Assembly: GCF_000014945.1 (NCBI RefSeq)
Contig: NC_008553.1
Location: 434,001-498,000, forward strand
Origin: Methanothrix thermoacetophila PT
GTDB lineage: Archaea > Halobacteriota > Methanosarcinia > Methanotrichales > Methanotrichaceae
Direction of reading: 5' to 3'
Length of the DNA: 64,000 nt
Below, piece by piece: positions 1-3,515 of the stretch. Numbering within the stretch: position 1 is the first letter of the stretch; every line of letters starts with the position of its first letter. The notes under the pieces are model-generated. The model was given only the letters and a program-made list of their open reading frames with translations, was not told the origin of the DNA and ran no database searches. The position numbers were made by a program, and so were the translations under genes.

Positions 1-393
1 GACGAGAACTCTTTCCCGCTGACTGTGTACCTGTACACCAGCACGCCATCAAATCCCTGGAAGCCCCGCGGCTCAAAGACCATCACAGTGACGCCTGAGA
101 GGCAGACTGTATCGTTCGAGACCAGCTTTGACGTATCAGACTGCAATCAGACGTTCGCATACAGGTTCTCCTACTCAGAGCCGGATCAGAACGGCAGGAC
201 TAGCATCGATCTCAGAGTGGATAAACCGATAAATCCGAGGATCGTGAGGTACACCATATTGTCGCCTGTGGGCATCGCAAATGTAATTCTGACTCTGGTG
301 ATATGCATTTTCGCTGGCGTGATTGTAGAACGCGTGAGCAATAACGGGGGAAGGAAAAAGGAGATCAAGGGCAGACAGGAGGAAGACAGATGA
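1..393 (+). CDS. Membrane-anchored beta-rich extracellular protein, 3' part
   Basis: The reading frame is open from base 1, so the gene starts before the window and only the C-terminal 130 residues are seen. They consist of a Ser/Thr-rich, probably beta-sandwich segment (about residues 1-85), one hydrophobic segment (about 88-112) and a short basic tail rich in Lys, Arg and Glu. That layout suggests an outside domain anchored by a C-terminal membrane helix. The stop overlaps the next start as ATGA, so it is translationally coupled to the five-helix membrane protein and, through it, to the tubulin-like protein. I do not recognise the family. An internal GTG at 25 is possible but not needed. 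Confidence 0.7.
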   Translation, partial: DENSFPLTVYLYTSTPSNPWKPRGSKTITVTPERQTVSFETSFDVSDCNQTFAYRFSYSEPDQNGRTSIDLRVDKPINPRIVRYTILSPVGIANVILTLVICIFAGVIVERVSNNGGRKKEIKGRQEEDR

Positions 394-971
394 TTTTGAC
401 TGCGATGCCGCTCGTGCTGCTGCTCATAGGGCTTGTGCTTCACAAGATGAACTTCGAGCGCATATACCGGAGACTCTCTGAGCTGTCAGATAGCGTCTCC
501 AAGGATAAGCTGTATGAGGTGCTATACATAGATCACGGAGCCAACTTCTCTGCCATGGTCTTTTCATCCTGGGTCGCGTTTTTCATCGCGTTTATGTATT
601 ACCTTATACCGTCAACGACCCCCTGGCTGCTCAGATCAGGGTTTCCGATTGCCACTGACTATGGGCTGGCATTTTTCGCTATACTAGTTGCAGTGCTGGC
701 ATCGATCCTGCTATGGGCCATCAGACGCCTTCCCGTATGGCTGCGGCTCTCTGAGATCCACAGCATATACCCTATATCGAGAAATGAGAAGAATCTGTGT
801 GCAGCCACAGTGCTGGTGCTTGCGTTCTCAGCGATATTCTCGATCTACAATTTCGTCAATTATCCCTTTGTGAACAAGACGCTTGAAGCTGCATCCTGGG
901 TGCTGATTATAGTAGCCGTGATTTTGCTTTTCATACCTGTGGTTAAAGAGTTCGTGGAGGCAGGTAGATGA
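390..971 (+). CDS. Five-helix integral membrane protein of the tubulin-like operon
   Basis: This 193-residue protein is mostly hydrophobic. Helices are predicted by eye near residues 1-18, 55-73, 88-110, 137-156 and 166-187. A charged stretch of about 30 residues after helix 1 (FERIYRRLSELSD region) looks cytoplasmic and could be a short amphipathic or coiled helix. The start overlaps the upstream stop by 4 nt and its own stop overlaps the next start by 4 nt, so all three genes are probably made together. No enzymatic motif is visible. A membrane docking partner for the tubulin-like protein is the simplest inference, but it rests on context only. Confidence 0.8.
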   Translation: MILTAMPLVLLLIGLVLHKMNFERIYRRLSELSDSVSKDKLYEVLYIDHGANFSAMVFSSWVAFFIAFMYYLIPSTTPWLLRSGFPIATDYGLAFFAILVAVLASILLWAIRRLPVWLRLSEIHSIYPISRNEKNLCAATVLVLAFSAIFSIYNFVNYPFVNKTLEAASWVLIIVAVILLFIPVVKEFVEAGR

Positions 972-2497
972 GATCGTGCTGTGTTGGCATAGGCGGATGT
1001 GGAGGTAAAATGCTTGAGGTGTTTCTCAAACCACTGGATATTTATTTACCCTTTCGCGATCCTGAACCGGTGGCATTTGGCAAAATTAAGGGCGTATACA
1101 TAGAAGCATATACGCCAGATGCCCAAAAAAACAAATTCTTTAAGCCAGCAAACGTGGGATATCCAGGATATGTCATACCTCATGCATCAATACCCGATGA
1201 TTCCAAAATATTGAGTTACGTATCTCATAAGTATGGATTCTATCTTAAGAAGGAGGGGTTTCACCGAAAGGCAGAGTATCTCAAAGCCATATTTGAGATA
1301 TTTGAGATCGATGAAACACTGAAAGGAATCGCTAAAATGGAGAATCCAATACTTGATGCAACATGGGATGCTATAAAAAGATATACAACGTTAGCTGAAA
1401 GCGGAGAGTGTGACAATATTCTATTCATTGTGTCACTTGGTGGCGGTACAGGTACGGGCTTCATAAACCCTATAGTCAACTATATACGATCAGGGGGAAG
1501 AAGGGAGTTTCCTGTTTTTGTTCTTGGAATACTAACGGAGGAAGGGGAGGACTCCAGAACTGGTGTATCCGAGGAGCAAAGAGGACTGGCAGCAGCAATA
1601 TCAATATACGACCTTCTCACGAAGAACAAAGATGAAGGCGTGGACGCTCTTATTCCCATAGATAATCAGATTCTTATTGATAAGTTTGGGTCGAACTATA
1701 CAAGTATAAATGATTATATATCTCGTGTTATGAGACCGTTTCTTGCAGATCGTCCTTTTCCACAAGAGGAAATGGATGGTCAAGGCCTTAGAGAGGAGTT
1801 CTTGAAAAACCTATCTAAACCGCCTGTCATGATTCCCTGCTATGCATCATTGGACAGCAAGAAGTCCAGCAACCCTGAGACGGAACTGGTCTCAAAAGCC
1901 CTCACAGGAAGCGTGCAAAATGATGAATGCGGCCCGCTGTTCCCATGCAACCCGGAAATGGCGGAGAGGGCGTTTGTCTTCTCGAGAGGGTATATATCAA
2001 AGGATAAGCTAGAGTCATCCGTACAGAGCATCACGGGACTTGATAGGAAAGACATATTCGTATGGAGAAAACTCGGAGAAAACAGGAAGAGTGATGTTCT
2101 GGTACTGCTGCGAAACCCCTACGGATCAGGATACAGTGGGCCGTTTGAAAAAAAGATGTGCCGCATTATCTCCCTCGCTTTGGATTACATATCACAGAAA
2201 AAGCAAGAGACTCTTCAAGTTGTAGAGGAGGGTGATGACCAGGCGCTGACATCTCAGTCTACCGATGCTCTGAGCAGCTACTTCAATCGCCTCACCAGTG
2301 AGCTGAAGAATGCAAAGTCCAGGCTCAAGGAGGGAAAGAAGCCGTTCTTCTTAAATGAGCTACAGATATTCGAGAGATCGTCGAACAACACGCATCAACA
2401 GGACAACGTTATTCAGAACAATCACGGGCCTTCAGAGGAGATGATCAGAAAGATCGTGCAGGAAGAGCTCAGGAAGCTGCTTCCAGCAGCGACCTGA
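968..2497 (+). CDS. Tubulin/FtsZ-superfamily GTPase-like protein
   Basis: This 509-residue protein has a glycine-rich nucleotide loop at the N-terminus (CVGIGGCGGKM, residues 5-15) and the tubulin/FtsZ signature GGGTGTG near residues 157-163. These positions match the T1 and T4 loops of that superfamily. The rest does not look like canonical FtsZ or CetZ and resembles the divergent Tubulin_2-like group. The C-terminal 90 residues are charged and probably coiled coil (YFNRLTSELKNAKSRL and EEMIRKIVQEELRKLL), a possible polymer or partner-binding tail. Bases 1100-2200 are visibly richer in A and T than the neighbouring genes, which may indicate transfer. It is coupled to two envelope proteins upstream, so a membrane-linked cytoskeletal role is inferred. 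Confidence 0.8.
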   Translation: MRSCCVGIGGCGGKMLEVFLKPLDIYLPFRDPEPVAFGKIKGVYIEAYTPDAQKNKFFKPANVGYPGYVIPHASIPDDSKILSYVSHKYGFYLKKEGFHRKAEYLKAIFEIFEIDETLKGIAKMENPILDATWDAIKRYTTLAESGECDNILFIVSLGGGTGTGFINPIVNYIRSGGRREFPVFVLGILTEEGEDSRTGVSEEQRGLAAAISIYDLLTKNKDEGVDALIPIDNQILIDKFGSNYTSINDYISRVMRPFLADRPFPQEEMDGQGLREEFLKNLSKPPVMIPCYASLDSKKSSNPETELVSKALTGSVQNDECGPLFPCNPEMAERAFVFSRGYISKDKLESSVQSITGLDRKDIFVWRKLGENRKSDVLVLLRNPYGSGYSGPFEKKMCRIISLALDYISQKKQETLQVVEEGDDQALTSQSTDALSSYFNRLTSELKNAKSRLKEGKKPFFLNELQIFERSSNNTHQQDNVIQNNHGPSEEMIRKIVQEELRKLLPAAT

Positions 2498-2584: not shown

Positions 2585-2630
2585 TTACAATATATCTTGG
2601 AAGTAATTCATAACATCCGTGGTGGCTGAC

Positions 2631-3515
2631 ATGATACGAACAGCTGCTCTGGGGGTCATGCTCATACTGATGCTGTGCGTGATGGATTCCGCATCGGTGC
2701 TGCCTGTGACAGGCGGCAACGGAGAGCTCTGCTGCACAGTCTTCGACATTTTCAAAGGGCCCCTGTATCAGGGAGGCTCTTACGATGCAGACAGGATGAT
2801 TCTGTACATTGATGCCGGTCTGAGATGGAGCAACGGGAGCTGCGCGGAGCTTTCCCGTGTCAAATATATTCTGATCGACGGAAATGACAGGAGCTACAGC
2901 AGAGATATAGCATCGAGCAGGCCCGTCTCTCCGGGACGGGAGCTCCTCGCATTCGTGGTTCCGAGAGAGGCGATCCCGAAGAGTCTTGTAGTGGACTCTG
3001 GAATCGGGGAGGTGTTCAAGGTGGATCTCGGGGAGCCGCTGAACTATTCGGATGAGAACATCACGGTCACATATTATGGCATCATGGGATCGAGGCTTGA
3101 TTACAATCGGAAGGCGCTTGATATAGATATCTCTGTAAGAAACAACTCATCCAATCCCATGAGAATATCCCCTGAGAACTGCACACTAGTGGACCAGTGG
3201 GGCTGGGGATACAGGGCGACTGATGGCTTCGAGACCAGAACGCTGAACGCCAACGAGAGCATCCGGGGAGTGGTGCGGTTCAGGTACCTCGCGCCATCCA
3301 GCATCCCATCACTTCTGCTATACAACCTCTCGTATGGGGATGGGATGATAGTGATAAGCGAGGGTAGCTGCGAGAACACAACCGAGCCCTCCAAGGAGGA
3401 CTCATCTGGAGAGTGCAACAGCTGTACTGTAGATGAGAGCAGCGTCAAGGGGCGGGTCGCAGCTGCAAAGGAGCGCCTCGCCAGGGTACGTGCCGCACAT
3501 GATACCGAGTCGTAG
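2631..3515 (+). CDS. Secreted protein with a DUF4352-like domain
   Basis: This 294-residue protein begins with a signal peptide (MIRTAALGVMLILMLCV). ATG 2631 is preferred over the in-frame GTGs at 2619 and 2622 because GGTGG lies 5-9 nt before it. The first half has paired cysteines (CC near residue 32). The region from about residue 140 to 240 (NITVTYYGI through RYLAPSSIP) has the pattern of the DUF4352 immunoglobulin-like fold common in archaeal surface proteins. The C-terminal tail is hydrophilic with four Cys (residues about 248-267) and a helical Lys/Arg/Ala end. It is probably extracellular. No enzymatic function can be assigned. Confidence 0.75.
   Translation: MIRTAALGVMLILMLCVMDSASVLPVTGGNGELCCTVFDIFKGPLYQGGSYDADRMILYIDAGLRWSNGSCAELSRVKYILIDGNDRSYSRDIASSRPVSPGRELLAFVVPREAIPKSLVVDSGIGEVFKVDLGEPLNYSDENITVTYYGIMGSRLDYNRKALDIDISVRNNSSNPMRISPENCTLVDQWGWGYRATDGFETRTLNANESIRGVVRFRYLAPSSIPSLLLYNLSYGDGMIVISEGSCENTTEPSKEDSSGECNSCTVDESSVKGRVAAAKERLARVRAAHDTES

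Follow-up and report, generated by a model that had tools for sequence, protein, structure and literature searches.

Nearly all Methanotrichaceae share a conserved four-gene cassette that encodes a member of an apparently undescribed tubulin-superfamily family together with a five-transmembrane (5-TM) protein and two proteins predicted to act outside the cell, an arrangement that suggests a cell skeleton connected across the membrane to the cell surface. Our confidence is high for the operon, its conservation and the predicted fold of the tubulin-like protein, moderate for an envelope-linked scaffold, and low for any specific role, such as shape, sheath attachment or division; the idea of a membrane-remodeling or surface-organizing cytoskeleton comes from gene context. 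In Methanothrix thermoacetophila PT (complete genome of 1,879,471 bp), the 3' part of the cassette opens the 64,000-nucleotide stretch that we analyzed (the window; G000:C1:434001-498000).

The start of the window contains three plus-strand open reading frames (ORFs): one at positions 1-393, whose 5' end is open, one of 193 aa at 390-971 and one of 509 aa at 968-2497. As an earlier sequence-only reading of this DNA had claimed, they are joined by two ATGA overlaps, one between the stop of gene 1 and the start of gene 3 (390-393; relatives have ATGA here or a junction within a few bases) and the other between the stop of gene 3 and the start of gene 4 (968-971; kept in nearly all relatives). 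That reading described a three-gene operon beginning at position 1; the coupling to genes for envelope proteins stands, but position 1 is merely the edge of the window, and the unit begins about 2.7 kb upstream of it, with a fourth gene that had been missed. The complete order, 5' to 3', is gene 2, gene 1, gene 3 and gene 4 (the tubulin), gene 2 being located just 5' of gene 1, outside the window. Directly 3' of the tubulin gene (2619-3515, plus strand), there is a gene for a secreted protein with a weak match to DUF4352, which is kept at this position in the congeners and in L066 only and is possibly an accessory gene of the cassette. The promoter and terminator scan is uninformative here because it covers only the bacterial sigma-70 pattern, with scores no better than those of shuffled sequences, and the host is an archaeon.

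The full gene 1 (L005:8951-10393, that is, G000:C1:432951-434393) encodes about 480 aa, of which the last 130 codons lie in the window (1-393, plus strand). Its product contains a signal peptide, a Gly-rich linker, a weak match to the Ig-like Pfam domain Big_9 and a single C-terminal TM segment (residues 440-458), in agreement with the earlier description of a C-terminally anchored outside protein; profile search found no relatives in the PDB. The gene 2 product is secreted and has no Pfam match, and our impression from its sequence is that it could be Ig-like. It consists of 537 aa in this strain and ranges up to 1,460 aa among relatives (L054:1697-5830, L044:1543-5925 and others), apparently through gain or loss of extracellular domains. 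The gene 3 product (390-971, plus strand; 193 aa) had been read as a five-helix membrane protein, which is borne out by its five hydrophobic segments and the five long helices of a confident structure model (pLDDT 91.6); this model has no fold match in the PDB (best E 1.0), and no Pfam family matches the protein above the cut-off. Given the basic loops on its presumed cytoplasmic side, this protein would be the natural link between the tubulin and the gene 1 product.

A search of 61 genomes detected the tubulin gene across the Methanotrichaceae, some of which carry it twice. The scan of genome contigs yielded 45 tubulin loci; when the neighboring ORFs were clustered, three families proved to be widely shared alongside the tubulin, arranged as 2-1-3-tubulin. 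On essentially all Methanotrichaceae contigs of sufficient length, the four genes keep this collinear order, the exceptions being contig ends and a few loci in which the small gene 3 was lost by the ORF caller under an over-extended tubulin ORF. Dozens of genomes share these genes in collinear order, so that this operon is not a chance arrangement; in particular, the neighborhood comparison called for by the sequence-only reading, which had named homologs lacking the membrane neighbors as evidence against it, showed that the homologs keep these neighbors. RNase HII, the class-V aminotransferase, CcdA/thioredoxin and other neighbors were rejected as cassette members and represent lineage context only.

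An independent search found gene 3 in 43 of 50 Methanotrichaceae genomes, and 6 of the 7 genomes without a match are incomplete or fragmented assemblies, including G010, where gene 2 is located at a contig end. Two cassette copies are present in Methanocrinis natronophilus, M. harundinacea 57_489 and the isolate fen_7, each copy of the tubulin being found beside cassette genes. At the phylum level, where 393 and 386 genomes were sampled, the genomes with gene 1 and those with gene 4 (the latter counted by full-length tubulin matches) form the identical set of 14, namely, 13 Methanotrichaceae and G092. The latter is a metagenome-assembled genome labeled Methanocellaceae UBA148, in which a 14.8-kb contig (L067 / L178) carries the whole cassette; the GC content of this contig, 0.41 compared to 0.44 for two other contigs of that genome, is compatible with either transfer or misbinning. 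No relatives indicative of a viral or phage origin were found, and this origin was rejected, as was a defense system, for which there was no PADLOC match.

Only one well-assembled Methanotrichaceae genome has no cassette, namely, G019 (complete; chromosome of 3,008,626 bp), which we take to be that of the sheathed strain GP6. Genes 1, 3 and 4 are absent from the entire genome; gene 2 was sought at the syntenic site (L175, G019:C1:2144000-2161900), where the RNase HII-aminotransferase neighborhood is followed by unrelated genes and shows no sign of the cassette. This strain is a natural knock-out for comparison. We consider it very doubtful that the cassette serves the sheath or intercellular plugs, with a tubulin scaffold positioning outside Ig-type proteins that join the membrane to the sheath: the family is nearly restricted to the Methanotrichaceae, a sheathed lineage, as would be expected, but the existence of the cassette-less, presumably sheathed strain makes a role in building the sheath less likely. 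Ig-like domains have been described also in Methanothrix sheath adhesins (PMC11576556), although the text of this sheath survey mentions neither FtsZ nor tubulin. The main text of a transcriptome paper on M. thermoacetophila contains no mention of FtsZ, tubulin or the cassette genes.

The Pfam Tubulin profile matches the gene 4 product (968-2497, plus strand; 509 aa) with E=1.7e-6 and 28.9 bits, under the cut-off of 33, and matches all 32 members of the family (best E 2.1e-10); a profile search of PDB sequences retrieved tubulin-superfamily chains, with CetZ at the top. An AlphaFold model built on the 32-row alignment, of good but not high quality (pLDDT 78, pTM 0.80), shows a two-domain tubulin fold, and Foldseek returned 838 matches at E<=0.001, CetZ2 (4b45) being the best, followed by tubulins. 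The model covers most of CetZ2 (TM 0.76 by target length), and the second, C-terminal tubulin domain is kept. Therefore, the whole two-domain tubulin fold is predicted. Judging from the modeled GTPase domain fold and the GGGTG(S/T)G signature of the T4 loop, the gene 4 product is a member of the tubulin/FtsZ superfamily, as had been proposed from its GGGTGTG motif; structure prediction, which could have spoken against this assignment, yielded the full tubulin GTPase fold.

The nucleotide-binding elements are easily located, all on the plus strand. T1 (GIGGCGG, residues 7-13; 986-1006), the family-invariant T4 signature (GGGTGTG, residues 158-164; 1439-1459) and the T6 loop around IDNQ (residues 230-234; 1655-1669), which aligns with VDNQ of CetZ, are kept across the family alignment. 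By alignment and model, the T7 loop (residues 260-271; 1745-1780) lacks the acidic catalytic motif, NxDxxD or the TDLGDF of CetZ, and this motif was not found in any of the aligned family members. The sequence-only reading had noted a coiled C-terminal tail; helices 429-455 and 490-504 are indeed predicted, but between them lie a conserved motif of the PFFxxxLRIF type (GxxPFFxxxLxIF, residues 456-468; 2333-2371) and a disordered linker that this reading did not include. The terminal helix (residues 490-504; 2435-2479), predicted from the model and the alignment, is a possible anchor or coiled coil, and helix 429-455, the motif, the linker and the last helix are all candidate anchoring elements.

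We propose, as a reading that we regard as finely balanced, that the four translationally coupled genes build one trans-envelope assembly with a GTP-binding tubulin, which would organize surface material or cell shape in the Methanotrichaceae. The gene 2 product would be secreted to the outside, the Ig-like gene 1 protein would be held there by its single C-terminal TM segment, and the 5-TM protein would probably bridge the membrane side to the cytoplasm. The tubulin would bind GTP beneath the membrane, recruited by way of the conserved motif near its C-terminus or of the last helix, and most likely would polymerize or form a membrane-bound scaffold. From the loss of the T7 catalytic residues, we infer that GTP is bound but hydrolyzed slowly or not at all, which would favor a stable rather than a dynamic filament. 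The cassette tubulin likely has a third role, given that a separate FtsZ and a separate CetZ are already encoded in the genome. With somewhat less than even confidence, we therefore envisage a Methanotrichaceae-specific cytoskeleton in which T7-less tubulins form stable filaments that the 5-TM protein ties across the membrane to Ig-type proteins outside the cell.

The divergence of the cassette in this strain counts against the trans-envelope assembly. The proteins encoded by genes 1 and 2 are 83-91% identical to those of three congeners, compared to 62-64% for the tubulin and 57-74% for the gene 3 product; divergence that is so much stronger in the tubulin and the 5-TM protein than in the outside proteins is odd for tight partners. 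Correlation of distances between the cassette genes revealed nothing beyond shared ancestry. The segment of the tubulin gene at about 1058-1822, which encodes the GTPase core, is AT-rich (GC 0.37-0.46), and its DNA is only 53-69% identical to that of the congeners, which agree with one another at 84-94% there; no other relative compared comes closer to it. The segment may have changed fast, or it may have been replaced from a donor outside the sample.

Few tubulin-superfamily proteins are known in archaea, and most of these have no known role. With fixed membrane and outside partners, the likely anchor and extracellular load of the cassette tubulin can be named from the genome. The hosts are important methane producers that use acetate, and their cell plan, a sheathed filament, is unusual. 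Whether a tubulin fold that lacks T7 catalysis can act as a static scaffold is a question for which the cassette offers a natural test.

The gene 4 family differs from each of the known groups of the superfamily. It resembles FtsZ in the GGGTGTG T4 loop and in having a linker followed by a conserved peptide at the C-terminus that might serve for anchoring, and profile-profile comparison (hhalign, run against families assembled in this analysis) gives 87% for FtsZ. FtsZ identity was nevertheless rejected: the FtsZ_C domain (PF12327), not detected in the gene 4 product by hmmscan, matches two other places in the genome, the NxDxxD motif of T7 is missing, and FtsZ is encoded separately.

Among the assembled families, CetZ is the closest by profile (98%, E 9e-14, 176 columns), with similarity spanning T4 to the C-terminal domain, as well as by fold, sharing the two-domain architecture (PDB 4b45, 4b46, 3zid) and IDNQ/VDNQ at T6. 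A fast-evolving CetZ, that is, a shape or motility cytoskeleton with acquired membrane partners and ordinary GTP-dependent dynamics, is thus an obvious alternative, and the tree test does not reject a clade that unites CetZ and the family (p-AU 0.254), although the best tree does not join the two. We consider this origin rather unlikely: the family has GIGGxGG at T1 and GGGTGTG at T4, in contrast to GQCGN and SGGTGSS of CetZ, lacks TDLGDF at T7, carries about 110 extra residues of the N-terminal domain before T4 and a C-terminal extension, and has fixed membrane partners, whereas the same genome encodes a separate, ordinary CetZ (L002). The sequence of the latter agrees with that of PDB 3zid along the aligned stretch; a crystal structure of the CetZ of Methanosaeta thermophila has been mentioned (PMC9856176). 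The missing signatures uphold the sequence-only reading that this is neither a canonical FtsZ nor a CetZ. In the tree, the family forms its own long branch with full support and is joined to the Methanosarcina-type FtsZl1 in the best topology (88/84), possibly through long-branch attraction; because of the long branches, the tree does not settle the sister group.

The FtsZl1 proteins combine an N-terminal FtsZ-like domain with an extended coiled coil and, at the C-terminus, a helical domain for which no similarity to a known one was found (Makarova and Koonin 2010, PMC2875224). The cassette tubulin shares with them the GGGTG signature, a GIGG-type T1 and an operon that also encodes a type-I TM protein as well as a polytopic membrane protein; it is, however, shorter (509-580 aa vs ~860-1,190 aa), lacks the FtsZl1 coiled coil and has a full predicted tubulin fold. 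The hhalign comparison gives 80% over 56 columns for the Methanosarcina-type FtsZl1 and 34% for the other FtsZl1. The Tubulin_2 profile (PF13809), a check suggested earlier, yields 17.8 bits against the cut-off of 27, with a match only around the T4 loop (25 of the 32 family members match weakly, best E 0.00043), and CetZ is nearer by profile, a point that the suggestion had missed. Tubulin_2 proteins are present in none of the 8 Methanotrichaceae genomes among those listed in the profile scan. With the tubulin C-terminal domain kept and the partners different, membership in FtsZl1/Tubulin_2 was rejected. The described FtsZl1 partners, a vWA protein, a diverged GTPase, a kinase and OmpA (PMC2875224), are not conserved neighbors among the collected cassette loci, consistent with the earlier remark that the partners are unlike those of described FtsZl1 operons. 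FtsZl2, typified by PFL_1302, is described as limited to Proteobacteria and as lacking conserved neighbors (PMC2875224).

In the FtsZl1 operons of Methanosarcinaceae and Methanomicrobiales (L160, L161, L164), a type-I TM gene overlaps the tubulin-like gene and a 4-5-TM protein with a DO-GTPase-like domain adjoins; BLAST found no relation of the proteins of these operons to cassette genes 1-3. The DO-GTPase2 match of the polytopic protein is weak, under the cut-off (L160:5454-6902, minus strand; L164:11816-13225, plus strand). In another lineage, a short tubulin-like protein (297-299 aa) adjoins FtsZl1 (L163:11633-12529 and L166:12569-13459, both minus strand) and is matched by Pfam Tubulin with 36.5 and 18.2 bits, respectively. 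The similar plan of the Methanosarcina operons and the loss of the T7 motif are compatible with a non-polymerizing GTP binder, a nucleotide-dependent switch or adaptor to which the 5-TM protein would relay a signal from the outside proteins, as may also hold for FtsZl1 operons with their GTPase and vWA partners. We find this quite improbable because the whole tubulin fold, including the C-terminal domain, is kept, no signaling domain (kinase, phosphatase, second GTPase or vWA) is conserved beside gene 4, and PADLOC gives no match.

The trans-envelope scaffold thus remains our preferred reading, and by analogy, the cassette may work like the FtsZl1 operons without being one. No description of the gene 4 family was found in a literature search of incomplete coverage, so that its novelty is provisional. 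Halo.Tub and other CetZ-like archaeal groups (PMC9871819), set side by side with it by description only, are likewise divergent, CetZ-related and of uncharacterized context; Halo.Tub, however, is reported to occur as quasi-tandem copies with coiled-coil neighbors, in contrast to the single tubulin gene per cassette with its fixed partners.
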